NCBI GenBank assembly: GCA_017477435.1
Contig: JAFUVV010000021.1
Coordinates: 1-37,287 of the forward strand
Length of the DNA: 37,287 nucleotides
Direction: 5' to 3'
Source of the DNA: Prevotella sp.
GTDB lineage: Bacteria; Bacteroidota; Bacteroidia; Bacteroidales; Bacteroidaceae
The position numbers were made by a program, and so were the translations under genes. Under the pieces are notes generated by a model, which was given only the letters and a program-made list of their open reading frames with translations, did no database searches and had not been told where the DNA came from. Positions 15,041-35,200 of the stretch are shown here, in pieces (the stretch's first letter is position 1; each line of letters opens with the position of its first letter).

Positions 15041-17332
15041 ATGATGAAGCGTTTCCATCTTCTTCTCTTTTCAGTGTTTACGATTGCCGTTCTTAATGCC
15101 CAGCAGAAAGACCTGGCTTCGTGTGTGAATCCGTTTATCGGAGCATCGACCAACATCGACGCTGCCGGTGCCTCCCATGGCTTGGGAAAGACATTCCCCG
15201 GCGCTGCAACGCCGTTCGGGATGACGCAAGTGAGCCCCCAGACAATCACTGGAGGCGATAACGGACCAGGCTATAGCTATGAGCACACGACCATCGAAGG
15301 CTTCTCGATGACCCAGATGAGCGGCGTGGGATGGTATGGCGACCTTGGAAATATCATGGTCATGCCCACCACCGGCCCTCTCCATACTGCTGCCGGAAAA
15401 GAGGATGGCAGCGTGAAAGGGTGGCGCTCCCGCTACGACAAAGCCACCGAGACGGCCCGGGCAGGCTACTATTCGGTTGTGCTCACCGACTATGACATCC
15501 GTGTCGAGGCTACGGCATCGCCCCACTGCGGCGTACTGCGCTTCACATATCCCGAGAACAAGCTGTCGCGATTGCAGATAGACCTGGCCCGCAGAGTAGG
15601 GGGCACGGCCGTGGAGGAATATGCCGAGCTGACCGGCGAGAACACTATCGAGGGCTGGACACGTTGCACCCCCGATGGCGGTGGATGGGGCGACGGAGCA
15701 GGAAAAGCTCTCTACACCGTCTATTTCCACGCCGAGCTGAGCCGGCCCATTGCCGACTATGGCTTCTGGAGCGCCGACATCCCCGACGGACAAAGCCGGC
15801 ACAACGGCGATGTCGCAAGCCGCGAATATCAGCAGCGAGTGGCCGAGGCAAAGGTGTTGCGCGGACAGAAATCGCTGCAAGGCAAGCATATCGGATTCTT
15901 CACAGAGTTTCCGACGACGAACGGCGAACAGGTAGAGCTGAAAGTGGGAATCTCCTTTGTCGACCTCGACGGCGCCCGCCGCAACTTCGAGGCCGAGATG
16001 CCGGGCATGGACTTCGATGACGTCTGCCGTCAGACCACCGAGAAATGGAACCGCGAGCTTGGAAGGGTTGAAGTGGAAGGCGGTACCGACGACGAACGCA
16101 CTATCTTCTACACTGCCCTCTATCATACAATGATCGACCCCAGAGCCTATACCGACGTCGACGGACGCTACATCGGCGGCGACTATAAAATCCACCATAG
16201 CCAGTCGACATTCACAAAACGCACCATCTTCAGCGGCTGGGACGTCTTCCGCAGCCAGTTCCCGCTACTCACGATCATCAATCCCACCGTCGTCAACGAC
16301 ATGCTCGCCTCACTCATCACCATGGCCGATGAGAGCCGACGCGAGTACTTCGAGCGATGGGAATTCCTCAATAGCTACACCGGATGCATGCTCGGAAACC
16401 CCGCACTGTCGGTACTCGCCGATGCATATGCTAAAGGAATACGAGGCTACGACATCGAGAAAGCATATCAATACGCCAAGAACTCATCGGCTAAGTTTGG
16501 CAACGACGAGAAAGGATACACCCCCGGAAGAACCGGAGTGTCGCACACTCTCGAATACGCCTATACCGACTGGTGCATTGCTCAGCTTGCCAAAGCGTTA
16601 GGAAAGAAATCAGAAGAAAAACTTTATCTTCGGAAGAGCCAAGCATGGCGCAACGTCTTCGACTCTGAGAAGCACTGGTTCCGCCCGCGCAACGACGACG
16701 GCACGTGGATGGAATGGCCCGAGCACGGACGCCTCACGGAGTGGTATGGAGCAATGGAGAGCAACGCCTTCCAGCAGGGATGGTTCGTCCCTCACGACGT
16801 GAAAGGCATGACGAAGATAATGGGCGGCAGGAAAGCAGCGCTCGACGACCTCCAGTGGATGTTCCATAACACCCCAGAGGACATGATGTGGAATCAATAC
16901 TACAACCACGCCAACGAGCCAGTCCACTTCGTGCCATATCTCTTCAACCAGCTTGGAGAGCCATCGCTCACGCAGTACTGGACACGCTACATCTGCTCAC
17001 ACGCATATAAGAATAAGGTGGAAGGACTCTGCGGCAACGAAGACGTCGGACAGATGTCGGCCTGGTATGTCCTATCGGCAGCAGGCATCCATCCCGTATG
17101 CCCTGGCAACACACGCGTGGAGATTACATCGCCAGTGTTCTCGAAGTTGACATTCCACCTCCCCGGCGGCAACACCTTCCGCATCATTGCCCACGACAAT
17201 TCGCCCGAGAATGTCTACATCGGCCGTCAGACGCTCAACGGCCGCAGCTACAAGAAATGCTACATCGACCACAGCGATATCACAGCCGGCTCCACACTCG
17301 AACTATGGATGACAGATAAGCCGAAGAAATAA
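15041..17332 (+). CDS. Secreted GH92-family exo-alpha-mannosidase
   Basis: A 763-residue protein with a signal peptide ending near VLNAQ. It opens with CVNPFIGAS, the usual GH92 start, followed by the N-terminal beta-sandwich (to about residue 270). The (alpha/alpha)6 catalytic part follows. YYNHANEPVHFVPYLF carries the candidate acid Glu626, and GNEDVGQMSAWYV is the calcium/base region. GH92 enzymes are calcium-dependent inverting alpha-mannosidases that trim N-glycans and yeast mannan; the linkage specificity cannot be read here. ATG codons at 15041 and 15044 are both possible starts. C-ending codons are strongly preferred. A lipoprotein gene follows seven bases downstream. Confidence 0.9.
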   Translation: MMKRFHLLLFSVFTIAVLNAQQKDLASCVNPFIGASTNIDAAGASHGLGKTFPGAATPFGMTQVSPQTITGGDNGPGYSYEHTTIEGFSMTQMSGVGWYGDLGNIMVMPTTGPLHTAAGKEDGSVKGWRSRYDKATETARAGYYSVVLTDYDIRVEATASPHCGVLRFTYPENKLSRLQIDLARRVGGTAVEEYAELTGENTIEGWTRCTPDGGGWGDGAGKALYTVYFHAELSRPIADYGFWSADIPDGQSRHNGDVASREYQQRVAEAKVLRGQKSLQGKHIGFFTEFPTTNGEQVELKVGISFVDLDGARRNFEAEMPGMDFDDVCRQTTEKWNRELGRVEVEGGTDDERTIFYTALYHTMIDPRAYTDVDGRYIGGDYKIHHSQSTFTKRTIFSGWDVFRSQFPLLTIINPTVVNDMLASLITMADESRREYFERWEFLNSYTGCMLGNPALSVLADAYAKGIRGYDIEKAYQYAKNSSAKFGNDEKGYTPGRTGVSHTLEYAYTDWCIAQLAKALGKKSEEKLYLRKSQAWRNVFDSEKHWFRPRNDDGTWMEWPEHGRLTEWYGAMESNAFQQGWFVPHDVKGMTKIMGGRKAALDDLQWMFHNTPEDMMWNQYYNHANEPVHFVPYLFNQLGEPSLTQYWTRYICSHAYKNKVEGLCGNEDVGQMSAWYVLSAAGIHPVCPGNTRVEITSPVFSKLTFHLPGGNTFRIIAHDNSPENVYIGRQTLNGRSYKKCYIDHSDITAGSTLELWMTDKPKK

Positions 17333-18453: not shown

Positions 18454-18494
18454 AAAGTTTTAAGTTTTGAGTTTTAAGTTTTGGGTTTTAAGTT
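18454..18494. repeat. Low-complexity TTTTAAG tract running into the HTCS start
   Basis: About four imperfect copies of GTTTTAAGTTTTG extend past 18481 into the first codons of the HTCS frame. It is the reverse complement of the tract at 6461-6508, with few differences. Confidence 0.6.
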
Positions 18495-21400
18495 GAAGTA
18501 TAGTATACGATACGTGTTTCTGGTGGCGTTGTTGCTGCCGGTGTGTGCCGGTTGGGGTGGTGAGTATCGCTTTTGGCACTATGATCGCAATGGCGGACTG
18601 TCGGATAATACGGTGAACGCCATACAGCAGGACTATATGGGATTCATGTGGTTTGGCACGAAGTATGGTCTCAATCGCTTCGACGGCCGGAAGTTTAAGA
18701 CGTATCACTCTGGTCTCGACGGGCGCAGCATGGGCAGTGACTATGTGAACACGCTCTATGCCGGCGACGGACGTGTATTGTGGGTGGGCACCGACAACGG
18801 GGCGTATGTGTATACTCCCGATACTGACTCGTTTGAGCGTTTCACTACCGACGCCGCCGACGGCGAGAGGATAGCTTCCAACGTGAAGCTTATCGCGGGC
18901 CACGGTACGATGGTCTTTTTCTCTACCGAGCAACAGGGGGTGTTTAGATATGATACGTCGAGCCGACGGATGGACCACTTTGTGATGGACGGATTTCCGA
19001 TAGTGACAGCTTTCGCTTTTGGGAACGACGGCCGCGCGTGGCTGGGGTTCTACGGTGGCGGACTGTTCTACAGCGACGATGGGCTGAAGACGCTGAAGCC
19101 TTATCGCAATGCTGCGGGGGAGGAACTGTTCGCCTCGATGATGGTGAACGGCATCGTGCTGTCGGACGACGGTGAGATATATGTCGGAACGGACCGTCGT
19201 GGTGTGCTGGTTCATACGATTGGCGGCACCGCGGTGCGCTCTCTCCTTGCCGGGGAGGGCAGTAAGGGGCATCATGTTCATGGTCTTGTGAGAAGTGGCA
19301 GCGAGATATGGGTGGCTACGGAGAACGGCGTGTATGTCTACGATATGCTTGAACGTGCGATGGACCACTACGGCTATGAGCCGACGAATCCCTATTCGCT
19401 GTCGGATAATCCCACGCAAAGCTTGTTCTGCGATAAGGACGGCGGCATGTGGGTGGGCACCTATTTCGGCGGTGTAAACTATGCCGTGAGGAATACGTTT
19501 GTCTTCGAGCATTTCTTTCCGAGAGTGGATATTGCCGGCTCGATACATGGTCGACGCGTGAGAGACATTGTCGAGGACCGCCGTGGCCAGATATGGGTGG
19601 GCACAGAGGATGGCGGACTCAACTGCTACGACCCTGCTACGAGACGGTTTGCACTGATAGAGTCGAGTCGCGACTATCCCAATATCCACGGCTTGTGTCT
19701 CTCTGGCGACACGCTGTGGGTGGGTGCTTTCGGCTCGGGGCTGAAGCTTATCGACACGAGGACGGGGCAGCTGATTGGCTCGTATGTGGGCGGCAAGGGC
19801 GACGGACGTCTCTACGATAATAACATCTTCATGGTGAAGAAGTTGTCGGGCGACAGGATATACGTGGGCACACTCAGCGGCCTGTTCCGCTATGAGCCGT
19901 CGAAGGACGGATTTGAAGTTGTCGACGAGTTGCCGCGCAACATTGTCTACGACATGCTTGAGGACCGTCGCGGACATCTATGGGTGGCTGTCTACGGCAT
20001 GGGGCTCTATCGTCGTAGCACGGCGAACGACAAGTGGGTGCTCTATTCGGCAAAGAACGAGCGGCACCATGTGCCGTCGGACAATATCATCGGCATCAGC
20101 GAGACGAGCGACGGCAGGATATGGATATCGACGGAAGGAGGCGGAGTGGGGTGCTACGACAGCGACGGCGACACCTTCGTGGGTGTGGATATCCCTCAGT
20201 ATAATCCCCGCAAGGTGGTGTTCGGCATCGTGGAAGACAAGCAGCGCCTGCTGTGGCTGTCGACGAGCGACGGCCTGCTGTGCTATAATCCGAAGAGTGG
20301 CGACTGCAGGGTATATACCACGAGCAATGGTCTGCTCGACAACAACTTCAACTACTGTTCGTCGCTCTACAGCTCCGACGAGAAGATATATATGGGCACA
20401 CAGCGCGGATTGGTGGAGTTTCGTCCTGGCAATCATTCCCTTTTCAGAGACAACTCGCGGATTGTGGCCACCGAACTGCTTATAAATAATGTGGTGGTGG
20501 ACAATCATGCCGAGGGCTCTCCGCTTCAGAAGAGCATCCTTGCCACCGACAAGATCAGTCTGTCGCACGACCAGAATACGTTTGCCCTGAAGGTGGGTAC
20601 GATTAGCTTCAACGAGTCATCGTCGCCGAATCTGGAGTATATGCTCGAGGGCTTCGACAGCGGTTGGCTTGACCTTCACGACGACAACTACATTAAATAT
20701 ACCAACCTGCCGGCGGGCCACTATACACTCCACGTGCGCACTCACTTGAGCGACGGTAACGTGTCGAAGTCGGCCTATGAGTTGGATATCACCATCCGCC
20801 AGCCGTTGTATTGGACGTGGTGGATGCGGATTGTCTATCTGCTCCTTGCTGCTCTCATCGGCTATGCTGCGTATAGGTACATTGTCTACCGCAGCCGGCT
20901 GCAGCGCAAGATTGCCATGGCAAAGTTTGAGCGAGAGAAGGAGCAGGAACTTTATCAGAGTAAGATAAACTTCTTCACCAACGTGGCCCACGAGATACGC
21001 ACCCCACTCACTCTCATAAAAGGTCCGCTGGAGGTGATCCTGCGGCGTAAGCACGACAAGGACGAGGAGGAAGACCTGAACATCATGGACCAGAACGTGT
21101 CGCGACTGCTCGACCTGACTAATCAGTTGCTCGACTTCCGTCGCACTGAGCGCGATGGGCTGAAACTGAACTTCGAACAGTGTAATATATCTTCACTCGT
21201 CGAGAGTATCCTCATCAGGTTCAAGCCTCTCATGCGTAACAAGAATATAGAAAGCACCTATTATCCTCCTGCCCAGCAGGTGAGTGCCTACGTAGACAAG
21301 GAGGCGCTGACGAAGATCATAAGCAATCTGCTGAACAATGCCGTGAAATACTGTGAGAAGACAGTTGTCGTCAGACTCGAGAGTGGCGACGACGACTTTA

Positions 21401-22440
21401 CGATCACTTGTGAGAACGACGGTGCAGTGGTGCCACGCGATATACGAGAAAAACTGTTCACTCCCTTCTTCCGTGGCGACACGTCGTCGTCGGGAACTGG
21501 CATCGGCCTTGCCCTGGCCCATACACTTGCCGAGCTGCATGGAGGACGGTTGGTTATGGTCGACCGCGACGATTTGAATGTTTTCCAGCTATCGTTGCCC
21601 CTCCGACAGAGTATGACGATAAACATGCCAACCGACGAAGAGGGCGACGTTGATGCTTTCGATGATCAGGACGACAACAGTCGTCATCTACCAGTGGTGC
21701 TCATTGCCGAAGACAATCAGCAGATGCTGCGCTATCAGCGACGTGTGCTGCAAGACTCCTACTATGTCCTCACCGCCTCCGATGGCAGTGAAGCTCTGAA
21801 GGTGTTGGCCGACCATGATATCGACATCATTGTCTCCGATGCCATGATGGAGCCAATGGGTGGATTCGAGTTCTGTCAGGCAGTGAAGCAAAATGTCAAC
21901 TACAGCCATATCCCCTTCATTCTCCTCACGGCTCTTACTCTCGACTCGGCCAAGGTGGAAGGAATAGAGAGCGGTGCCGACTCATATATCGAAAAGCCCT
22001 TCTCTGTGCAATATCTGCTCAGTGTGATTCAAAACCTCCTTCGCAGTCGGGAGAATATGCGTCGGCTCTATGCCACGTCGCCATTCCAGCAGCTCGACAC
22101 TTCGGCGGTGAGCCAGACAGATGAGAACTTCGTGACGAAGCTGCAGAAGGTTGTCGATGACAATCTTGCCGATAGCGATCTCGACCTCGACCGGCTGGCC
22201 GAGGAGATGGCAATGAGTCGTACAAATCTCAACCGGAAGATAAAAGGCATGTACAACCTCACTCCGAACAACTACATAAAAGTCGAACGGTTGAAGCGAG
22301 CCGCGCAGTTGATGAAGGGCGGGAATATGAAAGTGAGCGAGGTGTGCTATCTGGTGGGATTCTCATCGCCTTCTTATTTCACACAGTGCTTCCAGAAGCA
22401 GTTCGGACTGCTTCCGAAAGATTTTGTCGGTCAAGAATGA
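18481..22440 (+). CDS. Hybrid two-component system regulator (HTCS)
   Basis: A 1319-residue single-polypeptide sensor/regulator. A signal/anchor (VFLVALLLPVCAG) precedes a periplasmic double propeller of Reg_prop blades (for example DYMGFMWFGTKYGLNRFDG, RRGHLWVAVYGMGLY) to about residue 690. Then come a Y_Y_Y domain, a membrane helix (MRIVYLLLAALIGYAAY), a histidine kinase with His837 in VAHEIRTPL, and an ATPase domain (GTGIGLALAHTLAEL). A receiver domain has its phospho-acceptor at Asp1120 (IIVSDAMM), and a C-terminal AraC-type helix-turn-helix completes it. Such proteins bind glycan fragments in the periplasm and switch on nearby utilisation genes. No ATG is available: an in-frame TAA lies at 18475-18477, so TTG at 18481 or 18493 must serve. 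The stop overlaps the GH38 start. Confidence 0.92.
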   Translation: MGFKLKYSIRYVFLVALLLPVCAGWGGEYRFWHYDRNGGLSDNTVNAIQQDYMGFMWFGTKYGLNRFDGRKFKTYHSGLDGRSMGSDYVNTLYAGDGRVLWVGTDNGAYVYTPDTDSFERFTTDAADGERIASNVKLIAGHGTMVFFSTEQQGVFRYDTSSRRMDHFVMDGFPIVTAFAFGNDGRAWLGFYGGGLFYSDDGLKTLKPYRNAAGEELFASMMVNGIVLSDDGEIYVGTDRRGVLVHTIGGTAVRSLLAGEGSKGHHVHGLVRSGSEIWVATENGVYVYDMLERAMDHYGYEPTNPYSLSDNPTQSLFCDKDGGMWVGTYFGGVNYAVRNTFVFEHFFPRVDIAGSIHGRRVRDIVEDRRGQIWVGTEDGGLNCYDPATRRFALIESSRDYPNIHGLCLSGDTLWVGAFGSGLKLIDTRTGQLIGSYVGGKGDGRLYDNNIFMVKKLSGDRIYVGTLSGLFRYEPSKDGFEVVDELPRNIVYDMLEDRRGHLWVAVYGMGLYRRSTANDKWVLYSAKNERHHVPSDNIIGISETSDGRIWISTEGGGVGCYDSDGDTFVGVDIPQYNPRKVVFGIVEDKQRLLWLSTSDGLLCYNPKSGDCRVYTTSNGLLDNNFNYCSSLYSSDEKIYMGTQRGLVEFRPGNHSLFRDNSRIVATELLINNVVVDNHAEGSPLQKSILATDKISLSHDQNTFALKVGTISFNESSSPNLEYMLEGFDSGWLDLHDDNYIKYTNLPAGHYTLHVRTHLSDGNVSKSAYELDITIRQPLYWTWWMRIVYLLLAALIGYAAYRYIVYRSRLQRKIAMAKFEREKEQELYQSKINFFTNVAHEIRTPLTLIKGPLEVILRRKHDKDEEEDLNIMDQNVSRLLDLTNQLLDFRRTERDGLKLNFEQCNISSLVESILIRFKPLMRNKNIESTYYPPAQQVSAYVDKEALTKIISNLLNNAVKYCEKTVVVRLESGDDDFTITCENDGAVVPRDIREKLFTPFFRGDTSSSGTGIGLALAHTLAELHGGRLVMVDRDDLNVFQLSLPLRQSMTINMPTDEEGDVDAFDDQDDNSRHLPVVLIAEDNQQMLRYQRRVLQDSYYVLTASDGSEALKVLADHDIDIIVSDAMMEPMGGFEFCQAVKQNVNYSHIPFILLTALTLDSAKVEGIESGADSYIEKPFSVQYLLSVIQNLLRSRENMRRLYATSPFQQLDTSAVSQTDENFVTKLQKVVDDNLADSDLDLDRLAEEMAMSRTNLNRKIKGMYNLTPNNYIKVERLKRAAQLMKGGNMKVSEVCYLVGFSSPSYFTQCFQKQFGLLPKDFVGQE

Positions 22441-24299
22441 AACACTTTTTGCAAATGAACAGACTATCCATACCCATCCTCATGATACTGCTTTGCATGT
22501 TGCTCCCATCAGCGGCGCAACAAGCATATTTCGCCGATGGCTTCCACGGCGGTATCTATGGTCACTATCCAGTGAATACTTATACGCAGTTTCTTGTCGA
22601 CCAACTCCGTGAGCATCCTTCGTGGTGCATCGGCTTGGAAATAGAACCTGAGACGTGGGACACGGTGAAGGTGCGCACCCCCGAGGCCTATCGGCAGTTT
22701 AAAGCGATGGTGGAGGAGAGCGGACGTGTGGAATATACCAATCCGAGCTATGCCCAGTCGTATCTGTATCCTGTCTCTGGCGAGAGCATCATCCGCCAAT
22801 TTCAATATGGCATGCGTAAACTCCACAGCCATTTCCCTTCGATGACCTTCACCACCTACGCCACCGAAGAACCATGCTTCACAAGCTGTCTGCCGCAGAT
22901 ACTTGCACAGTTGGGATTCCGTTATGCCGTCCTTAAATGCCCAGATACGTGCTGGGGAGGATACACCGAAGCATTCGGTGGCGAGATAGTCAACTGGATA
23001 GGCCCCGACGGAACATCATTGCCCACGGTGCCTCGCTACGAATGTGAAGCATTGCAGCCGGGATCAGTGTGGCAGACGATAGCATGGAAGAACAGCAGTG
23101 AATACATTGAAGCATGTCGGCAGGCAGGGATAAAGCATCCCGTTGGCATGTGCTATCAGGATGCAGGATGGACATTCGGTCCGTGGCTGAGAAAAGACAG
23201 TACATCGAAATATATACTATGGACTGACTATATAGAGAATATTGCCGACCGTAGCAAGGCCACCGACTATCGTATGACCCAGGAAGGAGTCAGGGTGGCA
23301 CTTGTGTGGGGGTCGCAAGTGATGCAGCGCATCGGACAGCAGGTGAGGCATGCAGAGAATATGCTTCTCGACGCTGAGCGTATCGGTGCAGCCCGTTATG
23401 TTCTGACAGGAGTGAGACCCGATCAGGAAGCAATCGACGAAGCATGGCGCACACTGATGCTTGCTCAGCATCACGACTCGTGGATAGTGCCCTACAACAG
23501 GCTCAATTCCCATGGCACATGGGCAGACAATATAGCCCTCTGGACAGATGCCACATGTCATAAGGCTGGTCGCATTATCGGCGCATCCTTGCCGATGAGT
23601 GGTGGTAGGACTTTCTATTTTAATACTACCGGCAAGAGTCGTCGAGAAGTCGTCACGGCTACCGACGACAGTGGACAGCTCGTTGACGTCCTTGTTGATG
23701 CACCACCGTTTGGCATCATCGAAGCAATTCCCTCTGCCGGGAAGAAGATGAAAAACTTCTCTACTGTCAAGACGAAGAACGACAAGTCTATTGTCGAGAA
23801 CAACCAATACCGGCTCATCTTCGACTTAGCCCATGGAGGAATACTCACTTCGCTCTACGACAAACGAGTGAAGCGTGAGATGGTCGACCGTAGTTCGCCC
23901 TATGGCTTTGGCGAACTGCGGGGATACTTTCCCAGAGTGAGTCGCTTTTGTTCCTCACGGGAGAGTAGGGCAGAGGTCGACGTAGTGAAGTCGACGCCTT
24001 ATGTCACGAGTATCTGCATCAGTGGCAAGGTTGCCGGAGTTGTTTTCTCACAGACGTACACCTTGAAGTACGACGACCCGCTCATCGATGTCGACCTTAT
24101 CGTCGATTGGAAAGAAAACGTTCGCGTGGGTAATCATTTCCAAAGAAGCAGGCGCAATCGTACGGTGGCATTCTACAATACGAAGTACAATCTCAACGTC
24201 ATGTTCCCTGCAGCCATTGACGATGCCCGATTGTGGAAGAATGCACCCTTCGATGTATGTGAGAGTAGGCTCGACAGCACATTCTTCGACCGATTGTAA
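22437..24299 (+). CDS. GH38-type alpha-mannosidase, 3' end lost at the IS21 junction
   Basis: The 620-residue reading frame starts at the ATG overlapping the HTCS stop, with a signal peptide ending near PSAAQ. YGHYPVNTYTQFLVDQL and the LAQHHDSWIVPYN motif match the GH38 catalytic and helical-bundle regions, where family members read QHHDA. The C-terminal beta-sandwich begins near residue 450 but is incomplete: the frame runs into the IS21 left end at 24295 and stops after two IS-encoded codons. GH38 enzymes usually have 850 or more residues, so the product has probably lost part of its C-terminal domain. The expected activity is alpha-mannoside hydrolysis, consistent with GH92 nearby. The family call is less certain than the truncation. 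Confidence 0.75.
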   Translation: MKHFLQMNRLSIPILMILLCMLLPSAAQQAYFADGFHGGIYGHYPVNTYTQFLVDQLREHPSWCIGLEIEPETWDTVKVRTPEAYRQFKAMVEESGRVEYTNPSYAQSYLYPVSGESIIRQFQYGMRKLHSHFPSMTFTTYATEEPCFTSCLPQILAQLGFRYAVLKCPDTCWGGYTEAFGGEIVNWIGPDGTSLPTVPRYECEALQPGSVWQTIAWKNSSEYIEACRQAGIKHPVGMCYQDAGWTFGPWLRKDSTSKYILWTDYIENIADRSKATDYRMTQEGVRVALVWGSQVMQRIGQQVRHAENMLLDAERIGAARYVLTGVRPDQEAIDEAWRTLMLAQHHDSWIVPYNRLNSHGTWADNIALWTDATCHKAGRIIGASLPMSGGRTFYFNTTGKSRREVVTATDDSGQLVDVLVDAPPFGIIEAIPSAGKKMKNFSTVKTKNDKSIVENNQYRLIFDLAHGGILTSLYDKRVKREMVDRSSPYGFGELRGYFPRVSRFCSSRESRAEVDVVKSTPYVTSICISGKVAGVVFSQTYTLKYDDPLIDVDLIVDWKENVRVGNHFQRSRRNRTVAFYNTKYNLNVMFPAAIDDARLWKNAPFDVCESRLDSTFFDRL

Positions 24300-24345
24300 A
24301 TGATAACGTAAAAGTATACCAGATAATAATCTAAAAGTATACCAC
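24295..24345. repeat. IS21 left terminal inverted repeat
   Basis: Begins with TGTAAATGATAACG and contains AAAAGTATACC twice (about 24310-24320 and 24333-24343). It matches the reverse complement of 26800-26851 at most positions. Confidence 0.8.
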
Positions 24346-24386
24346 TTTGGCAGTGTGCTGCAAAGGTACAAAAAGTTTGTTAAACA

Positions 24387-25139
24387 TTACTTGTTGCTGA
24401 TAATTTTTCTTGTTTCTTTAATTCGATATGATGTTCCTGTCATGTTGACGAGGTATGATTTATGACAGAGTCTGTCGACGAGTGCAGAGCATAGGACTTT
24501 ATCCTTGAGCACTTCCTCCCATCTGGTAAAAGGCAGGTTCGTAGTGATGATCGTGGATTTCTTTCCTGTCCTGAGTGAGAGATGGTTGAAGAGCATCTCT
24601 GCGCTTTCCTTGTCGAAGCCGACATACCCGAGTTCGTCGCATATGACGAGGTCGTAGCGTTCAAACTTTATTTCCAGATTCCTTAGTGTCTTCTCTGTCT
24701 TGGCCTCCCTAATCATAGTCAGCAAGTGCGGCACGGAAGTGAAGAAGACGGAATACCCTTCAAGACACGCCTTGATGCCGAGTCCGATGGCTGTGTGTGT
24801 CTTGCCCGTTCCGGGATTACCGTACATGACGATGCTTCGTCCTTCCTTGATAAAATCCAGCGTCTCGACCTCAGGCAGTATCATCTGTCCCTCCAGTGGC
24901 AGTTCCTCTCTCTTGAGTTCCTCGAGGTACTTCATCTGCGGGAAGTCTGCCCTGTGTATGCGTGTAATCTTGCTTCTCTCACGCCTCCTGGTCACTTCCT
25001 CCTCCAGCAGTCGTCGCAGGAAAGTGAGACATGACCACTGCTCTCGGACGGCATCTTCGGCAAGGATGGCCACGTTTTCCCTCACCGCAGCCAGTTTGAG
25101 TTCCCTGGCATACATGTCTATGATGTCCCTTTCGTTCAT
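24387..25139 (-). CDS. istB: IS21 helper ATPase IstB
   Basis: A 250-residue AAA+ ATPase that assists the IstA transposase. Walker A is GNPGTGKT (residues 107-114) and Walker B is LVICDELGY (Asp168, Glu169). An N-terminal helical domain (residues 1-90) precedes them, as usual for IstB. The ATG at 25139 overlaps the istA stop as ATGA and is preceded by the Shine-Dalgarno AAGGAGG at a good distance, so it is preferred over the ATG at 25148. Confidence 0.92.
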   Translation of the reverse strand: MNERDIIDMYARELKLAAVRENVAILAEDAVREQWSCLTFLRRLLEEEVTRRRERSKITRIHRADFPQMKYLEELKREELPLEGQMILPEVETLDFIKEGRSIVMYGNPGTGKTHTAIGLGIKACLEGYSVFFTSVPHLLTMIREAKTEKTLRNLEIKFERYDLVICDELGYVGFDKESAEMLFNHLSLRTGKKSTIITTNLPFTRWEEVLKDKVLCSALVDRLCHKSYLVNMTGTSYRIKETRKIISNK

Positions 25140-26731
25140 GGTACACACCTCCTTCCCGTGCCAGTGACGCCAGCGTTACCCTGCATGATGCCGTCCAGCT
25201 GTGCCAGCACGTCCTCGCTGCCGAGTTCTATCTCCAGGAAGGCATCCGTCCTCTGGCTGTCAGTAAACGTCAGCGGCGCGGCATCCCTCGTCTCCAGCGC
25301 CACCTTTATCTGGTCAAAGTTGATGCGGCGGGCACCGCGCATACGTATCTGCCTGACGGCATCGAGGATGTCCCTGTAGTCATGTCTGTTTTCCCTACAG
25401 TACTTGAGCAGCCGCAGGAAGTCCTTGCCGCTGTCTGCAAAGTGCACGCGGAAGAGTTCCTGCATCTTTTCCGGCATCTGCCTGAGAGCCACGGAGCCCT
25501 TCAGTGCGCCGGGCTTCTTCATGAGCGTACCTATGTAGTGGTTGATGTCAAACGTCCATGAGCCGGATGAGTAGCTACGCTCATGCTCGGCCATCTTCTT
25601 GTGCGCGGAGTCATAGACGCGTATCTTCTCCGAGTAGAGCTGCACGAGGACCGTCTGTCCCGCGAGATGGTCGGGTACGGAGTAGTGGCATCCCTTGACG
25701 GATATGGTGGACTGCTTGTCCACGGAGCACTGCAGCAGGTCGAAGCACCCGAAGTCGCCGGGAAAGTGGAGCATGCACTCCATGTCCCTGCGCAAAGCCT
25801 GCTGCTTGTCTCCCGTGGCAATGCTGCCGCTTTCCTTATTTATATTGTCGCATATAACGTCCAGCCACATCTGTGCAGCCTCTATGGAGTCAAAGTCCAC
25901 TCGTGTGGTGAAGGCACGCCCCCTGACGTAGTCCACGCTTCGCTCCACATGCCCCTTCTCCCATCCGGCGCGGGCATTGCAGAAGCGGTGGGAGAAACCG
26001 TAGAAAGCCTCCATGCGCAGCAGGGACTCCGTGGGCTGCTTCCCGTCCGGCCTCAGGATGACGGCCACCTTCATGTTGTCGTACACCATCGTGTGGGGCA
26101 CACCGTGCACGGTATGGAAGAAATTGCGGTGTGACTCCATGAAGGCCAGGTTGTCCTGGTGGCGGAAGAGATAGGCCCAGCGTCCCTCGCTGTGGCACAA
26201 GGCAAACACGGCCATCGTGAACGTAACCTGCTTGCCGGCTATGCGCAGCTTGACCTCACCCCAGTCAAACTCGCACTCCTCTCCAGGCTCATAGTACTGC
26301 TTGATAAACACATCCTTGGGCTTGCTCCTCTTCTCGGTCTTGCGTTGCTGGATGTACTTACACACGCTCGAATAGCTGATGCTGAAGCCCTTTTCTATCA
26401 AAGCACGGTAGATGTCCTGCCGCTTCAGACACTGTTTCCTCATGCCAGTCTGTCGGCGTTTGGCATTCTCCGTAAGCCAGTACTCAATCTCTGCGCATAC
26501 GGCATCTGTCAGCCTGGTGCGCTCCGTCCTGCGGGTCGGATACTTAGGCTTACTTGCAAGGCACATGTCTATGCCTTCTTCAGGGTCAGACATCACCTGA
26601 GCCTCATACTCACGGATGTAACGGGTCACGGTCTTCCTGTTCAGACCTGTCCTGCGGGCTATCTCCCGCAAACTCAAACCATCTATGCGATGGTAATGAA
26701 GAATCTGTTCCTTCTTGTCCATGTCGATCAT
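25136..26731 (-). CDS. istA: IS21 transposase IstA
   Basis: A 531-residue DDE transposase. An N-terminal helix-turn-helix (SLREIARRTGLNRKTVTRYI) binds the repeats in the IS ends. The integrase core shows Asp156 in CEFDWGEV, Asp218 in MVYDNMKV and Glu258 in GWEKGHVE, at spacing typical of the family. A C-terminal Mu-type beta domain follows (KGCHYSVPDHLAGQTVLV). The frame is complete, with no internal stop. It lies upstream of istB with the usual 4-base overlap. Confidence 0.92.
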   Translation of the reverse strand: MIDMDKKEQILHYHRIDGLSLREIARRTGLNRKTVTRYIREYEAQVMSDPEEGIDMCLASKPKYPTRRTERTRLTDAVCAEIEYWLTENAKRRQTGMRKQCLKRQDIYRALIEKGFSISYSSVCKYIQQRKTEKRSKPKDVFIKQYYEPGEECEFDWGEVKLRIAGKQVTFTMAVFALCHSEGRWAYLFRHQDNLAFMESHRNFFHTVHGVPHTMVYDNMKVAVILRPDGKQPTESLLRMEAFYGFSHRFCNARAGWEKGHVERSVDYVRGRAFTTRVDFDSIEAAQMWLDVICDNINKESGSIATGDKQQALRRDMECMLHFPGDFGCFDLLQCSVDKQSTISVKGCHYSVPDHLAGQTVLVQLYSEKIRVYDSAHKKMAEHERSYSSGSWTFDINHYIGTLMKKPGALKGSVALRQMPEKMQELFRVHFADSGKDFLRLLKYCRENRHDYRDILDAVRQIRMRGARRINFDQIKVALETRDAAPLTFTDSQRTDAFLEIELGSEDVLAQLDGIMQGNAGVTGTGRRCVP

Positions 26732-26799
26732 TTTTTACTCTCTGTACGTTTAACAGCACTCATGCGAGCTACTATAATAACGTAAATTCTCCGACCTAC

Positions 26800-26851
26800 A
26801 TGGTATACTTTTCAATTATTATGGTGGTATACTTTTCAATTACTATTTACA
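26800..26851. repeat. IS21 right terminal inverted repeat
   Basis: GGTATACTTTTCAATT occurs twice (starting at 26802 and 26826), and the end reads ATTTACA. It is the inverted partner of 24295-24345. Confidence 0.8.
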
Positions 26852-27283
26852 GGAGTAGGGCAGGTGATCGACTATTGTAGCGACCATTTTAACAAGGTGT
26901 CGCCGATGAGCAGCCTGCAAAACGACTTCATCACTTTCACTTTCAAAGGGTCTGCCGGCGAGAACGATCTCGCAGCAACGACCGATGTCTATCTGCAAGG
27001 TACGGCATATACCTACGAAGGGGGAGCCTATACGGTAGATGTACGCAATGACAAGACACGTATGACACGTGAAAATGCCTATAGCGACACATATAATATT
27101 ACATTCTGGCCAATCGACTACTTTGGTGTACCCGAAGATGAGAACATTGAGCGGATTGAGTATTATTTCAGCAGTGCCGACGGCTCGATCACCGTCACAC
27201 AGTCCGACGACGACTATGTGCAGGAAGGTGTTCCAATGCCAGATGTGAAGAAAGGCTTCACGTTCAGATTCGAGTGTGAGTAA
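26852..27283 (+). pseudogene. C-terminal remnant of a secreted PUL-type protein, 5' end lost at the IS21 junction
   Basis: The frame is open from the IS end (residues GVGQVIDYCSDHF, no ATG) to a TAA at 27281-27283. The first usable start is a GTG at 26864. The about 143 residues look like a beta-sandwich: FITFTFKGSAG, DVYLQGTAYTYEGG, NDKTRMTRENAYSDTYNITFWP, IERIEYYFSSADGSITV, FTFRFECE. This resembles the C-terminal domains of SusE/SusF-like or DUF4961-type outer-membrane lipoproteins that follow susD genes. It cannot be the missing end of GH38. A product without signal peptide would not be exported, so I treat it as a remnant. Confidence 0.65.
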
Positions 27284-27328
27284 TTATGAACTATGAACTA
27301 AAAACTATGAGCTATGAACTATAAACTA
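27284..27328. repeat. Low-complexity ATGAACT tract overlapping the first susC start
   Basis: Five imperfect copies of a CTATGAA/ACTA(A/T)AAA unit, one of which supplies the ATG at 27314. Small changes in copy number would move or remove that start codon. Confidence 0.6.
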
Positions 27329-30300
27329 AATAAAAGTCATCGGTTACCTATGATGCTTTTCCTCGCTGCTTTCCTTCTGATAGCAGCCAGCGGAAACGCT
27401 CAAGGACTCACAGGCCAGATCCTCGACGGGAAGAACAGTCCAGTGAGAGGTGCAGCCGTGGCAGTAAAAGGTGGTGAAAGCGTCACCACTGCCGACGATG
27501 GAAGCTTCACTCTTTCGGCAAGTGCCGACGACGTGATCACAGTCAGTCATCCCGATTATCTCTACAAAGAGATGAAAGTCGGCAGAGTTGGAGCCAAAGG
27601 ACTCACAGTCCATGTTGAGCGTCGTTTTGTAGATAATCAGCGTGATCTGACAGGTCCTTTCGGAGAGAATATCGATCGCGACAGCTATCTCGGTTCCGCA
27701 TCAACTGTCTATGGCAAAGACTTGGAGAAGTATCTTTCCACAGATATCCTGACAGGACTCCAGGGCCGCATTGCTGGATTTAGCATTTCACAGTATAGAG
27801 GCTCTCACATTGCCAATATCAGTTCCAACTCCAGAGTTGATCTCATTGGCAGCCTTCCTTCCGGATATGGAGTAGGGTCGTATGGCGACAATACTCGTTT
27901 CAACTATTTGTCGCGTAGTGTGGCTCCCGTGGTTATTGTCGACGGTGTGGAGCGCACCTTGTTGTCAATCGACCCAGAAGCAATAGAGTCGGTTACACTG
28001 CAGCGCGACGCCCTCTCGTCGATGTTCCTCGGAATGAAGAGCTCACGTGGAGCCCTCATCATCACAACGAGGAAGCCCACCGAAGGAAAGCTCAGCCTGT
28101 CGCTGACGGGTAAGTTCGGAGTGCATAGTAGCGTGCGTCATCTGAAGCCGCTATCTGCATCTGAATATGCTTACCTGCTCAACGAAGCATTGCAGAACGA
28201 TGGTAAAGGTGGTGTATATACATACAAAGACTATCAGGCATTCCTCGATGGTAGCGACCCCTACAGACATCCAAATGTGAACTGGGAAGACGAACTGCTC
28301 AACAAGAACGCCACCACTCAGTCCTACAACCTCAACGTCTCAGGAGGCAACCGTGTGGCACAATATGTTGTCAACCTCGGTTATATGAACGAAGCCGGAT
28401 TATTCAAAAAGAACAAAGACAACGGCTATAACACCAATCTCAACTACAATCGCTACATGATATCGTCGAAGGTGAACATCAATGTCACTCAAGACCTGAC
28501 AGCATCGCTCTCGGCAATCGGACGTATAATCGAAGGCAATCAGCCAGGTGGAACAGGAAGCGGATACAGTGATCTGCTCCTGAACATATTCCAGACGCCA
28601 AACAATGCCTATCCCGTCTATAACGAGAATGGTACCTACGGCGGTAATTATTCCCATCAGAATAATCTCCTCTCCCAGACTATGGAGAGCGGATATATTG
28701 CCGACAATACGAGAGATATCATGGCGACCGGTACGTTGAAGTACGACTTCAACCGTGTTGTAAAAGGTCTCTCGGCCAAGTTCATCGGCAATGTGACCAC
28801 CCAGACACGTACGGCCATCGTTCGTACAAAGCGCAATCCAGTTTATCAATACACTCTCAACGACGAGGGTAATCCTGTATATGTACAATACGGCTCCCCC
28901 TCTTCGCAGACAAACAATTTCACGTCGGTGTCCAACTATCATAATCTCTACGGACAACTATCTGTAGATTATCGCCGTGATTTCGGATTGCACAGCTTGC
29001 AGGCAACCGTCATGGGCGACACTCGTCACGAAATCGACGACTACGACCTGCCGATGATACCGTCCAACATAATGGAGGGCGTCAGCTATAGCTATGCAAA
29101 GAAGTACTTTGTACAGGCTAAGCTCACCGAGAGCTATTTCAACCGCTATGCTCCCGGAAAGCGTTGGGGCACGTTCGGAGCTCTCGGACTGGGATGGGAC
29201 ATAAGCCGTGAGGCGTTCATGGACGATGCCTCATGGGTAGACCGCCTGAAGCTTTATGGTACATGGGGACGCACCGGCAACGGTATAAGCAACTCCGGCT
29301 ACTACATCTGGCGTCAGACCTATTCGCAGAACCTGACCACGTTCTATCCCCTCGGTTCAGAGCGTAGCAACGGCTACTGGGTCACTGAAGACGGGCTCGC
29401 CAATCCGTATATCTCCTACGAGAAAGCCAATAAGCTCAACATCGGACTTGATATGGCATTCTTCAACAATCGCCTCAGTGCCACTGTGGAATACTATAAC
29501 GACAAGTATCTCGACCTCTTGCAGCAGCGTGGCAAAAGCATAGCCCTGCTTGGCATGACATATCCCTATGAGAACATCGGCCGCACACGCCGTCAGGGTT
29601 GGGATGTGACTCTCTCGTGGCAAGACCACGTAGGTGCACTCAACTACTACATCAGCGGAAACTGGAGCATTGCTCATACAAAGCTTCTGTTCATGGATGA
29701 GCAGGAGATGCCCTACAACTATCTGCGCCAGACTGGCCGCCCCGAGGGCATCGTCTTCGGTTTGCAGGCTGATGGCTTCCTCACTGCTGACGATATTGCC
29801 AACAACTATCCTACGATGGTTGGTTACGACGTACAGCCTGGCGACGTGAAGTATATCGACCAGAATGGCGACGGTGTTATCAATGAGTGGGACCGCACTT
29901 GCATCGGCGGCGACAAGCCAGTGCAGTTCTTTGGTCTTGATCTCGGTCTTGAGTGGCGTGGCCTCGAATTCTCAATGCTCTGGCAGGGGGTATGCGGCAG
30001 AGATCTCTACGTGAACAACCGTACTCTCGTCGAAGGTTTCCAGCCCATTGGTAACAGCTACGGGCAAGCCTATCGCAATATCATCGACCGTTGGACACCG
30101 GAGACAGCAGCCACAGCCAAGTATCCTCGCCTTTCTGCCGGAGGCAACACTTACAACTATGGTGGCTACTATGGTTCTTCGCTTTGGATGCACAACGGCA
30201 ACTTCGTCCGCTTGAAGAACGTCTCCTTGGCCTATAACTTGCCTGAGACATTCTGCCAGAATAAGCTGGGCGGTGTCAGGGTTAAGGTGTTTGTAGAAGG

Positions 30301-30409
30301 TCAGAATCTACTGACATTCTCTGCTTGCGACCTTGTCGACCCCGAGGTGATGTTCACAAGTTCACCGCTGCAGAGAACTATTTTCACAGGAATAAAGCTA
30401 AATTTCTAA
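27314..30409 (+). CDS. SusC/RagA-like TonB-dependent outer-membrane transporter, first copy
   Basis: A 1031-residue protein with a signal peptide (LFLAAFLLIAASGNAQ). The true start may be 27314 or the ATG pair at 27350. Residues about 30-105 form a carboxypeptidase-regulatory-like domain (GLTGQILDGKNSPVRGAAV). The plug (about 115-260) includes VVIVDGVERTLLSIDPEAIESV, the SusC plug signature. The barrel follows and ends in TIFTGIKLNF. The plug start is divergent, and I see no EVVVVGYG-type TonB box. It should import oligosaccharides together with the SusD-like partner 17 bases downstream. Its original upstream region has been replaced by the IS21 junction. Confidence 0.88.
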   Translation: MNYKLNKSHRLPMMLFLAAFLLIAASGNAQGLTGQILDGKNSPVRGAAVAVKGGESVTTADDGSFTLSASADDVITVSHPDYLYKEMKVGRVGAKGLTVHVERRFVDNQRDLTGPFGENIDRDSYLGSASTVYGKDLEKYLSTDILTGLQGRIAGFSISQYRGSHIANISSNSRVDLIGSLPSGYGVGSYGDNTRFNYLSRSVAPVVIVDGVERTLLSIDPEAIESVTLQRDALSSMFLGMKSSRGALIITTRKPTEGKLSLSLTGKFGVHSSVRHLKPLSASEYAYLLNEALQNDGKGGVYTYKDYQAFLDGSDPYRHPNVNWEDELLNKNATTQSYNLNVSGGNRVAQYVVNLGYMNEAGLFKKNKDNGYNTNLNYNRYMISSKVNINVTQDLTASLSAIGRIIEGNQPGGTGSGYSDLLLNIFQTPNNAYPVYNENGTYGGNYSHQNNLLSQTMESGYIADNTRDIMATGTLKYDFNRVVKGLSAKFIGNVTTQTRTAIVRTKRNPVYQYTLNDEGNPVYVQYGSPSSQTNNFTSVSNYHNLYGQLSVDYRRDFGLHSLQATVMGDTRHEIDDYDLPMIPSNIMEGVSYSYAKKYFVQAKLTESYFNRYAPGKRWGTFGALGLGWDISREAFMDDASWVDRLKLYGTWGRTGNGISNSGYYIWRQTYSQNLTTFYPLGSERSNGYWVTEDGLANPYISYEKANKLNIGLDMAFFNNRLSATVEYYNDKYLDLLQQRGKSIALLGMTYPYENIGRTRRQGWDVTLSWQDHVGALNYYISGNWSIAHTKLLFMDEQEMPYNYLRQTGRPEGIVFGLQADGFLTADDIANNYPTMVGYDVQPGDVKYIDQNGDGVINEWDRTCIGGDKPVQFFGLDLGLEWRGLEFSMLWQGVCGRDLYVNNRTLVEGFQPIGNSYGQAYRNIIDRWTPETAATAKYPRLSAGGNTYNYGGYYGSSLWMHNGNFVRLKNVSLAYNLPETFCQNKLGGVRVKVFVEGQNLLTFSACDLVDPEVMFTSSPLQRTIFTGIKLNF

Positions 30410-30425: not shown

Positions 30426-32243
30426 ATGAAAACATTGAAGACAATCATTCTGCTGTCGGTTGTGCTCGTTGCTGCTGCTACGTCGTGTACCGACGACTAT
30501 GAAGAGCTGCCAGTCGATCAATATACAATAGAATATGTATTTTCAGAGACTGACTCTGCCGGAGTTCAGGCAGTTCGTTTCCTTAATGCCATCTATTCTA
30601 TGCTGCCAAGTGGCTACAATCGTGTTGGCAGCGACTTCCTCGATGCTGCATCCGACGATGCCGTCTCGCTCTATATGGACAGCGACCCCGACGTGCTTCG
30701 TCTGCAGACAGGACGCTATACGGAGAGCAACCAAGTGTCGTCGGACATGACATGGGGCACGTGGTATGAGGCTATTCGCCGGTGTAATATATTCATTAAC
30801 AATATCGACCGCGTACCGTTTAACACCTCGTTTGTAAACTCCCGTGAGTATACCGACGAGAGTGGCGAGACCGTAGTCGGCGAGACTCGTCCGATGGGCT
30901 CCTCGTATAAGGCAGAGGCTCGTTTCCTCCGTGCTTTCTTCTATTTCCAGTTGTTGGAGCGCTACGGCGGAGTGCCATTGGTGGGCGACAAGGTGTTCGA
31001 CATCAACGACAATCTCGAATTGCCTCGCAATACGTTTGCCGACTGCGTAGACTATATCGTCGACGAGCTGACCGATATCCAAGACTCGCTCCGCTCTCTT
31101 CCGATGCGTGATGCCACGGCCTTTGCACATGTACCTACAAAGCAGGCCTGCCTGGCTTTCAAGTCGAGAGTGCTGCTCTATGCTGCCAGTCCGCTGTTCA
31201 ACGGCAATACCCTCGAGGCCGGCAATCCCTATGTGGGCTATACCGACTACAACCAAGATCGCTGGACACTTGCCGCAGAGGTGGCAAAAGACTTCATCGA
31301 CAACTACGGAATACTCTCTACCCGCACATCGATGAACAAAAACAAGTTCCAGCTGATCAGCGACTATCGGAAGGTGTTCATTAACTATTTCTCTTCCGAC
31401 ACTCGTGAGGTGATATTCTTCCGTAATAATGGTAACGGCACCTCCGTTGAGCGCAACAACGGTCCGCTCGGCTTCTCAGGCAACAAGCTTGGCAACGGTC
31501 GCACCAACCCCACTCAGAACCTCGTCGATGCCTTCCTCATGAAAGACGGCAAGCCACGTGGCCAGAGCAAGTATGCCTACGACCCGCAGAGGCCTTACGA
31601 AAACCGCGACGGCCGACTCGACTACACCGTTCTCCATCAGGGTTCCGTGTGGCTCAACACTCAGCTCGACACCTATCAAGGTGGTGCCAACAACCCCTCC
31701 GGATCGGGACGCTACAACCAGACGAGCTACTATATGTGTAAGTTCATGAACGACTTCACTACTTCTAATGAGTATGGCAGCCACAACGAGCTCTGGATCT
31801 ACTTCCGCTTTGCAGAGATACTCCTCAACTTTGCCGAGGCTGCCAACGAATGCAGCAATCGTGATGCATATCTCGACGATATCATCAACGTGCTCATCCC
31901 CATTCGCCATCGTGCCGGCATCGAGCCAGGCAGCGACAAACTCTACGGACTCGATCCGTCTATGACACGTGAGCAGATGCGTGAGGTGATCCACAACGAG
32001 CGTCGCCTCGAACTGGCCTTCGAAGAGCATCGCTATTTCGACATACGCCGCTGGCGTGAGGCCGAGACCATCTTCCGCAAGCCCATCCAGGGCATGCAGA
32101 TCGTCAAAGGCACATCGCAGATGGTATATACGCCTATCGACATACTCAACGTGGATTGGAGCAACAAGATGTATCTCTATCCGATTCCATATACCGAAGT
32201 GAATAAGAACAGCAATATGGTGCAGAACCCTAATTGGAAATAA
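30426..32243 (+). CDS. SusD/RagB-like glycan-binding lipoprotein
   Basis: A 605-residue protein with a lipoprotein signal (VAAATSC, Cys21). The N-terminal TPR-like core includes SDMTWGTWYEAIRRCNIFINNID and EARFLRAFFYFQLLERYGGVPL, which are SusD signatures. The C-terminal region has the usual NERRLELAFEEHRYFDIRRW and ends in NSNMVQNPNWK. It forms the lid of the SusC transporter and binds glycan at the cell surface. It lies between two susC genes, with GGAGG ahead of its ATG and only five bases to the second susC. Confidence 0.9.
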   Translation: MKTLKTIILLSVVLVAAATSCTDDYEELPVDQYTIEYVFSETDSAGVQAVRFLNAIYSMLPSGYNRVGSDFLDAASDDAVSLYMDSDPDVLRLQTGRYTESNQVSSDMTWGTWYEAIRRCNIFINNIDRVPFNTSFVNSREYTDESGETVVGETRPMGSSYKAEARFLRAFFYFQLLERYGGVPLVGDKVFDINDNLELPRNTFADCVDYIVDELTDIQDSLRSLPMRDATAFAHVPTKQACLAFKSRVLLYAASPLFNGNTLEAGNPYVGYTDYNQDRWTLAAEVAKDFIDNYGILSTRTSMNKNKFQLISDYRKVFINYFSSDTREVIFFRNNGNGTSVERNNGPLGFSGNKLGNGRTNPTQNLVDAFLMKDGKPRGQSKYAYDPQRPYENRDGRLDYTVLHQGSVWLNTQLDTYQGGANNPSGSGRYNQTSYYMCKFMNDFTTSNEYGSHNELWIYFRFAEILLNFAEAANECSNRDAYLDDIINVLIPIRHRAGIEPGSDKLYGLDPSMTREQMREVIHNERRLELAFEEHRYFDIRRWREAETIFRKPIQGMQIVKGTSQMVYTPIDILNVDWSNKMYLYPIPYTEVNKNSNMVQNPNWK

Positions 32244-32248
32244 CGACT

Positions 32249-35200
32249 ATGAAAAGATATATTATTATAATAATGTGCCTTTGCACATGTACATTATCGC
32301 TGCTCAGCCAGACGGTGAGTGGAGTAGTAACCTCTGCCGACGACGGCGAGCCCCTCATCGGCGTCACCGTCAAGGTGAAGGGCACCCAGTCGGCCACCGT
32401 CACCGACATCGACGGCCGCTACCAGATAGCCGCCTCGCCGTCGGCAAGGCTTGTATTCTCCTATGTGGGCTACGTTGAGAACGAAGCCGTCGTACATGGC
32501 TCCACACTCGACATCGTCCTCACCCCCGACGACAACGGACTCAACGAGGTGGTCGTCGTAGGCTATGGACAGGCAAAGCGCATCACCCTCACCGGTGCCG
32601 TCAGTGCCATCAATGGTAAGGAACTGCAGAAAGTGCCGGTCAGCAGCGTGCAGAACACCCTCGTCGGTAAGCTCCCCGGATTCTTCTCCCAGCAGCGGTC
32701 GGGACAGCCCGGTAAGGACGCCTCCGACTTCTTCATCCGTGGCGTCAGCTCGCTCAACTCCGCCGGCAACCAGCCGCTCATCATCGTCGACGATGTGGAA
32801 TACACCTACGAGCAACTCTCACAAATCAACGTCAACGAGATAGAGAGCATCTCCATCCTGAAAGACGCCTCCACCACAGCCATCTACGGTATCAAGGGCG
32901 CCAACGGTGTGCTCGTCGTGAAGACCCGCCGCGGCGAAGACGGACGGCCACGCATCAACGTGCGACTCGAGACCGGCGTGCAGACCCCCGTGCGCACCCC
33001 AAACTTCCTGCGCTCGTATGAGACAGCACAGCTTGTCAACGAAGCCTACCTCAACGACGGCCTGCAGCCACAGTTCACCGAGACCGACCTCGAACACTTC
33101 CGCACAGGCGACGACCCCTACGGACATCCCGACGTGAGCTGGTACGACGAAATATTCCGGAAGACAGCACAGCAGACAAATGCCAACGTCGACGTATCCG
33201 GAGGCACCGACCGACTGAAATACTTCGTCTCCGTAGGCTACTTCATGCAGAACGGACTCGTGCGCAACTTCTCATCCGCTGCCGACGACGTCAACTCTAA
33301 CTACCTATATCGCCGATTCAACTACCGCTCCAATATCGACTTCCAGGTGACCAAAAATCTATCGATGAGGCTCGACATCACCTCGCGGTTCATGAACATC
33401 AACGAGCCCTACAACCTCAATGCCACAGGACAGATATACAGTTGGGAAGAAATGCACCCCTATTCAGCACCCGTCGTCAACCCCGACGGCTCCTGGGCAT
33501 ACCTCTACGACACCTCCGGACGCCGCCCGACGCTCAACGCCCGCCTCGCCAACCAAGGCTACCGCCGCACACGGCGCAACGACAACAACCTCCTCTACAA
33601 CGCCAACTGGAAAATGGACTTCATCACGCCCGGACTATCTTCAAACGTGCGCATAGCCTATTCCACCATCGACGAAAACTGGCGCAGCGTCTGGCGTAGC
33701 GAGTTCCCAACCTATCACTTCAACTCCGACGGACAAGGCGGCGGCTACTACAACATCAACCCCGACCACGTCTACACCAACGGCTCCTATGCCGTCACCG
33801 CCGGAACAAACACCGCACGCAAAGACCTCAACATGCAGGCCTATCTCAACTACGCACGCGTGTTTGCCGAAGACCACGACGTCTCAGCCATGCTCCTCTT
33901 CAACCGCGAAAGCACAACCAATGAAAATTCCGGACAGAAAGTGCCCGAGAAATTCATGGGCATGACACTCAAAGTGGGCTATAAATACCAAAACCGCTAC
34001 CTCCTCGACTTCAACGCCGCCTACAACGGCTCCGACCGCTTCGCTGCAGGACACCGCTACGGATGGTTCCCAGCAGTAGGCGTAGGATGGGTCGTAAGCG
34101 AAGAACCATGGTTCAAGAAAATATTCGAGAAAAGCGTCGACCATCTCAAGATCCGATCATCCTTCGGACTCGTAGGCTCCGACGTCGCCATGGGCAACCG
34201 CTACCTCTACAACCAAGTCTACGAAGTAGGCTCCTCCTATTACTTCGGCGACCGCGCCATCAACTGGCCAGGCTATCGCGAAGGAGCCCTCGGAAACGAC
34301 CACGTCACGTGGGAGAAAGCACGTAAGTTCGACATCGGTATCGACCTTAACCTCTGGCGCACCGTCTCTATCACCATCGACTACTTCTACGACCACCGCT
34401 ACGACCAGCTCGTCTACCGCGGCGACATACCCCTCATCATCGGCGTAGGCACATCGCCCGTCAACGTAGCCAAGACCATGAACCAAGGCATCGACGGCCA
34501 GATAGGCTACCGCAACACATGGGGCGACTGGGGATTCAACACCAACTTCGTCTTCTCCTACGCCAAAAACCGCATCCTCTTCCAGCAGGAAGCCCAGCAG
34601 CGCTTCCCCTGGCTCATGCGCACAGGCCACCCCATCGGACAACCCTTCGGCTATGTGTGGGACGGCTACTATACCCCTGAAGACATCGCAGCCATCGAAG
34701 CCGGCAGCGACGGCGCACCCGCAGTGCCCGTCAGCGACATCGCCGTGCAGGCAGGCGACCTCAAATACAAAGACCTCAACGGCGACCGCCTCATCGACGA
34801 CTACGACAAGCAAACCATCGGAAAGCCCAACCTCCCCAACACCACCCTCGGATGGACCATCGGAGGATCGTGGAAAGGACTCACCCTGAGCATCCTCTTC
34901 CAAGGATCGTTCAACTACAGCTTCTCCGTCGTCGGCACAGGCATCGAGCCCTTCAAGAGCCAGTTCCAGCCCCTCCACCAGCAGCGATGGACAGAAGAGC
35001 GCTACCTTGCAGGCGAGCCGATCAACTTCCCCCGACTCACGTCGAACCCCGCCACCGTCAACTCCGCCGAAGCCTACATGAGCGACTTCTGGCTTGTCGA
35101 CGCATGGTACATCCGACTGAAGACCATCGACCTCAGCTACTCCCTGCCGCGCAGCGCACTGCCACGATTCCTCGACTCCGCACGCATCTACATGAACGCC

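Follow-up and report, generated by a model that had tools for sequence, protein, structure and literature searches.

How did an insertion sequence (IS) come to stand between two truncated genes that several related genomes keep kilobases apart, and what became of the DNA between them? These questions are raised by the window, a stretch of 37,287 nucleotides from Prevotella sp. (assembly GCA_017477435.1) that makes up the whole of contig JAFUVV010000021.1, C48 of 62 in a 2.32 Mb draft that is 77.87% complete. An IS21-family element occupies positions 24295..26851, with the 5' part of a GH38 alpha-mannosidase-family gene on its left and the 3' part of a DUF4961 gene on its right. The first-pass annotation of this DNA had described the two broken genes as unrelated. 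In relatives they turn out to be two genes of one polysaccharide-utilization cluster, and the element probably lies at the junction of a deletion inside a single mannosidase-type cluster of that kind. Below, G000 denotes the window's own genome, the other G numbers denote the genomes of relatives, and C and L numbers denote contigs and loci, respectively.

Two truncated genes and the cluster to which they belong

The GH38 gene (22437..24294, plus strand; PF01074, PF07748 and alignment to relatives) is cut after 619 codons, its open frame running on to a stop at 24297-24299, within the IS. As had been proposed, the break falls in the C-terminal domain: the PF07748 match covers positions 1-144 of 206, and the alignment with the G135 and G279 proteins ends at the invariant CESRLDSTFFDR, about 190 residues short of the C-terminus of the G135 protein. 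On the other side of the element, the DUF4961 remnant (26852..27283, plus strand, 143 codons) matches positions 175-283 of the 283 in PF16328 and is 72-73% identical to residues 275-419 of the G135 protein. Its frame holds no start codon ahead of the break, the first being the GTG at 26864, and its earlier description as a C-terminal part without a start was thus correct.

The genus was sampled with 150, 150 and 398 genomes. With the full G135 protein as the query, DUF4961 matches were found in 16 of the 398 genomes, own included, and these 16 were then searched with the full G135 GH38 protein. All but two of the 15 relatives that have DUF4961 carry a full-length or two-piece GH38 homologue, the exceptions, G246 and G102, giving matches that are only weak or partial. 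In seven of these 13 (G117, G009, G346, G278, G172, G271 and G173) both genes lie on one contig, always on a common strand and with GH38 first; the G173 contig has the C-terminal piece of GH38 only. Measured between the positions that correspond to the two breaks, the interval spans 11217 bp in G117, 11365 bp in G009, 11172 bp in G346, 11241 bp in G278 and 47881 bp in G271, and it spans 6136 and 6289 bp in two Dysgonomonas loci (L152 and L163). In G172 and G173, the two genes are about 10 kb apart by match coordinates, the sequence not having been fetched at both break points. An intervening interval, which the first-pass annotation had proposed to look for by alignment to relatives, is seen in these genomes, at 6.1-47.9 kb.

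The order of the genes around DUF4961 is constant. In all ten relatives mapped, of the 15 with DUF4961, the block reads SusD - DUF5004 - DUF4961 - SusC - SusD - SusC, and in G117 the interval contains the GH38 C-terminus, a GH92 gene, a GH2-type gene, a GH78-type (rhamnosidase) gene, a SusD-like gene, DUF5004 and the N-terminus of DUF4961. Clusters of the type GH38-GH92-SusD-DUF5004-DUF4961-SusC, found in Prevotella, in Xylanibacter brevis (L146, matching G278) and in Dysgonomonas (L152, L163), share with the window the genes, their order and their strand at both flanks; the window differs from them in having the IS in place of the middle part, and in having its GH92 gene upstream of the regulator. 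To the right of the DUF4961 remnant, all on the plus strand, follow an intact SusC-like transporter gene (27314..30409; TIGR04056, 611 bits; 81% to G135), an intact SusD-like gene (30426..32243; PF07980, 5.4e-59; 84%) and a second intact SusC-like gene (32234..35326; TIGR04056, 929 bits; 86%). These right-side genes are closest to those of G135, G279 and G246 (78-86%), those of G271 being more distant (55-73%). It had been suggested that a full transporter pair might be gone if the right remnant closed a susC-susD-susE-like set. The block order in the relatives corrects both ideas: DUF4961 is third in the block, a single SusD-like gene appears to have been lost, and both SusC and the second SusD remain intact.

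All seven one-contig relatives being collinear, the locus is best read as marking a deletion at the IS. The ancestor would have carried, on one strand, regulator - GH38 - (other genes) - SusD - DUF5004 - DUF4961 - SusC - SusD - SusC, and the DNA from GH38 codon 619 to about codon 276 of DUF4961 (G135 numbering) would have been removed, one IS copy staying behind. If this loss occurred as a single deletion, its size would have been about 11 kb with the compact layout or about 48 kb with that of G271. The rest of the draft, which is 77.87% complete, was searched for the parts concerned. With G135 queries, only residues 14-628 of GH38 and 275-419 of DUF4961 found matches, so neither the GH38 C-terminus nor the DUF4961 N-terminus was detected elsewhere, and the best match to the first SusD was the window's own other SusD, at 36%; DUF5004 was not searched for. 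For the GH2-type gene, the best homologue in the draft has 32% identity, and among shorter pieces one reaches 37%. The loss would thus include, as a minimum, the C-terminus of GH38, a SusD-like gene and the N-terminus of DUF4961, and probably DUF5004 as well. A GH78-type homologue (63%) lies on C50 of the draft; it was considered as a mark of a moved interval and set aside, no other gene of the reference set being present on that contig.

Several observations weigh against this deletion. At 77.87% completeness, the missing pieces could lie in the unassembled part of the draft. No sister strain without the IS was found in the genus samples, among 179 relatives or in a contig scan that may omit records very near the window's genome. 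The GH92 gene of the window (15041..17332, plus strand; PF07971, PF17678) is 73, 72, 72 and 71% identical to its counterpart beside GH38 in G117, G135, G279 and G271, respectively (63-65% in G009 and G346), and it stands upstream of the regulator, whereas in relatives GH92 directly follows GH38; at least one further rearrangement therefore separates the window from them. In a tree of GH38 proteins (40 rows, 35 of them different), the window groups with L142, L144 and L158 (Shimodaira-Hasegawa-like approximate likelihood ratio test, SH-aLRT, 97), inside an 11-row group that also holds G135, G279, G271 and L143 and outside the genomes with the 11-kb layout (G117, G009, G346 and G278). Within the window's group, the two genes are 48 kb apart in G271 and on separate contigs in G135 and G279, and no gene of the block occurs in the stretch fetched downstream of GH38 in L142, L143, L144 or L158. 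Given this placement and these layouts, both the ancestral arrangement and the extent of the loss are uncertain.

GH38 and DUF4961 lie on separate contigs in six of the 13 relatives (G135, G279, G284, G194, G301 and G355), which counts against the deletion and speaks for a rival, an inversion or translocation by recombination between two IS copies that had brought together stumps from separate loci, leaving the reciprocal halves elsewhere. On either side of the element, G135 and G279 belong to the window's closest relatives, which lends some weight to such an exchange, as does the only other complete copy of the IS found in the draft (G000:C45:5012-7567): it too lacks a target duplication and adjoins an open frame that is cut short and that the DNA on its other side does not continue. 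Searches of the draft did not recover the reciprocal halves, however, the flanks of the C45 copy show no match to genes of the cluster, and a chance joining of two genes of one cluster in the order and strand of the collinear relatives would be improbable, so that we consider this exchange unlikely. The C45 copy was tried as the reciprocal product on the strength of a GGAG shared by its flank and the window's right flank, and was rejected, its flank lacking the DUF4961 N-terminus and GGAG being attributable to chance.

The IS21-family element and its missing target duplication

The first-pass annotation had placed an IS21 element at 24287..26870. The family assignment held, and the ends were redefined from the terminal and internal repeats, giving an element of 2557 bp (24295..26851, no strand assigned to the whole) that begins with TGTAAATGATAACG and finishes in ATTTACA, so that TGTAAAT opens both ends when read inward. 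Each end carries the internal repeat AAAAGTATACCA twice, at 24310 and 24333 and, inverted, at 26801 and 26825. The left terminal inverted repeat, on the istB side (24295..24344, plus strand), is 82% identical to the right one, on the istA side (26801..26851, minus strand), in reverse orientation. The transposase gene istA (25136..26731; PF22483; NF033546, 210.9 bits for a cut-off of 160; 2.1e-19 to the solved IS5376 transposase) and the helper ATPase gene istB (24387..25148; PF01695, 4.5e-59; NF038214, 232.7 bits for a cut-off of 200) lie on the minus strand with istB downstream and the frames overlapping. Both frames are open and score above the NCBIfam cut-offs for the IS21 family.

A target duplication of 4-8 bp is a further trait of IS21-family elements. 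In the window, a transposase, a helper ATPase and terminal inverted repeats with internal repeats and a terminal CA are all found, and a short target duplication is not; the assignment rests on the proteins and the ends, and a deletion junction would not preserve a duplication. No match links the flanks, CGACCGAT and GGAGTAGG, which have no common string of at least 4 bases near the two ends of the IS, and none appeared after the ends were shifted, which agrees with the earlier annotation. With its TGT/ACA ends and two internal repeats in each, the present element resembles the known members of the family (IS21, IS5376), for which internal repeats L1/L2 and R1/R2 are described (PMC10122671, PMC11208146). 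One of these reports gives 5 bp as the length of the direct repeats observed experimentally (PMC10122671), in contrast to the copies compared here.

The duplication is likewise missing from the other two-ended copies of this group that were compared. Full copies are 88% (C45), 81% (G103) and 79% (G265) identical to that of the window, and IstA matches at E <1e-50 occur in four of the 398 genomes, own included. Seven copies with two ends were compared: those of the window, C45, G103:C125, G265:C4, G081:C78 (internally deleted), G204:C3 and G204:C19. This set leaves out one-ended copies (at the ends of contigs C20, C15 and C53, and in G262, G116, G054, G127, G095, G235, G145, G222, G082 and others), an end pair in G278:C15 whose orientations do not fit one element, and G261:C55, a second record of the G204:C3 insertion. 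None of the seven is flanked by a flush direct repeat of at least 4 bases. In G103, ATCAT stands to either side of the IS, with a gap of 2 bases at the left end, and in G081, ATCTT occurs at unequal offsets; neither was counted as flush. Therefore, the missing duplication is not special to the window and is weak evidence about its history, contrary to the initial suggestion that it points to recombination. Some members of the group are miniature derivatives that keep both ends and are too short for istA or istB (G204:C3:96524-96862 and G261:C55:8696-9034, 339 bp; G204:C19:47950-48273, 324 bp).

The same count would be compatible with an IS that had inserted, without any deletion, where fragments of GH38 and DUF4961 already adjoined. 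Such a fragment pair is present in none of the ten mapped relatives and at none of 30 loci, several of which reach less than 10 kb past GH38, and we regard this origin as hardly credible. A search for an empty site in a sister species likewise gave none in the genus samples, among the 179 relatives (two candidates scored per genome) or in a contig scan of 30 loci; the nearest GH38 found in the sister search is 68% identical.

A repeat of this kind could also have misled the assembly, so that the contig was wrongly joined at the IS. The draft is in 62 pieces, three contigs (C20, C15 and C53) terminate within related IS copies, and no reads were at hand. However, identity to the window's copy is no more than 89-90% for these contig ends and 87-88% for the other full copy; a near-identical repeat on which the assembly could have gone astray is not known, and both flanks come from one cluster and have a like G+C content (51.7% on the left, 52.3% on the right). 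An assembly chimera is thus very unlikely. Three further contigs of the draft, C60, C57 and C54, end in one shared IS21-type end of another sort, about 76% like the window's istA-side end.

Routes to the junction

Two routes could have produced the proposed deletion. Two IS copies in the same orientation, one in each gene, might have recombined; alternatively, a single insertion might have been followed by an IS-adjacent deletion. The first-pass annotation had named both, and what stands of its history is the deletion at the IS, as the data do not separate the routes. Identity between the window's copy and that of C45 is even, at 82-93% per 200 bases, with no sign of a mosaic, although near-identical parents would leave none. 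Recombination between IS copies is possible, with no positive evidence in its favour. A study of IS-associated deletions and of IS copies without duplication in laboratory evolution traces missing duplications frequently to IS copies that recombined or to deletions beside the IS, and proposes insertion at existing breaks (PMC11708052). The events described there resemble the window in having an IS at the centre of the deletion and no duplication. They differ in that they involved other IS and took place in E. coli and Pseudomonas fluorescens, whereas the window offers only an end state, in a draft genome, and an IS21-family element.

Other copies of the group also seem to sit at breakpoints. 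Comparison of G120 with G204 along the left flank of G204:C3 gives 8656 bp at 99.7%, the match reaching the base next to the IS and the two differing from there on. The right flank of G204:C19 recurs in G179 and G332, where the shared DNA starts within 3 bases of the IS boundary; these two genomes have a common left neighbour, different from that of G204:C19. G317 shares the right flank of the C45 copy from about its 8th base and not the left one. Not every comparison breaks at the IS, G325 departing from the left flank of G204:C3 62 bases before it. For the six copies other than the window's, no joined site with both flanks was found among the matches listed (398 genomes, two candidates scored per genome), so that the genomes sharing one flank may still hold the other. 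This is a lead only, drawn from many-contig assemblies, small numbers and a shallow search of two candidates per genome. It is quite doubtful that the group, its 324-339 bp miniatures included, inserts as a rule at DNA breaks or loses neighbouring DNA on insertion, without duplication, with most copies marking rearrangement breakpoints in Prevotella. If missing duplications and flanks that are not neighbours elsewhere proved true in complete genomes, the group would be a test case for the proposal of that study that some IS enter DNA breaks in the course of large rearrangements (PMC11708052). Neither the junction nor this IS group in Prevotella was found described in the titles and abstract openings of the literature searched. 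Extra copies were also sought outside the genomes: eight plasmid records match part of the element at 60-80% and one viral-contig locus matches at 38%, none of which was used, and none was found in phages.

Consequences for the cluster and neighbouring genes

Judged from the sequence, GH38 is likely inactivated and DUF4961 lost, and SusC-SusD-SusC is likely cut off from the upstream operon. On the plus strand, no copy of TAnnTTTG, a Bacteroidetes -7 motif, lies between 24201 and 27400; the minus strand has one, at 24368, which faces outward from the istB end, antisense to GH38. SusC-SusD-SusC may stand without a promoter. The junction is an ordinary kind of genome change and a modest lead on the IS group. 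It exemplifies an insertion sequence that truncates a glycan-uptake cluster while the remaining transporter genes stay intact.

Upstream of GH38, the regulator of the cluster is a hybrid two-component regulator (HTCS; 18481..22440, plus strand; Reg_prop, HisKA, HATPase_c, Response_reg and HTH_18 domains), 48-50% identical to the HTCS upstream of GH38 in G117, G009, G346 and G278. Its stop overlaps the ATG of GH38 at 22437 as ATGA (22437-22440), whereas further genes separate the regulator from GH38 in those four genomes.

Among the relatives, three adjacent genes, two of them GH92, are 98-99% identical at the protein level between G135:C4:63179-70152 and G271:C6:16527-23665, while the adjoining SusD, SusC and DUF4961 are only 46-75% identical. 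This near-identical stretch would reflect either a recent transfer or contamination of one of the bins.

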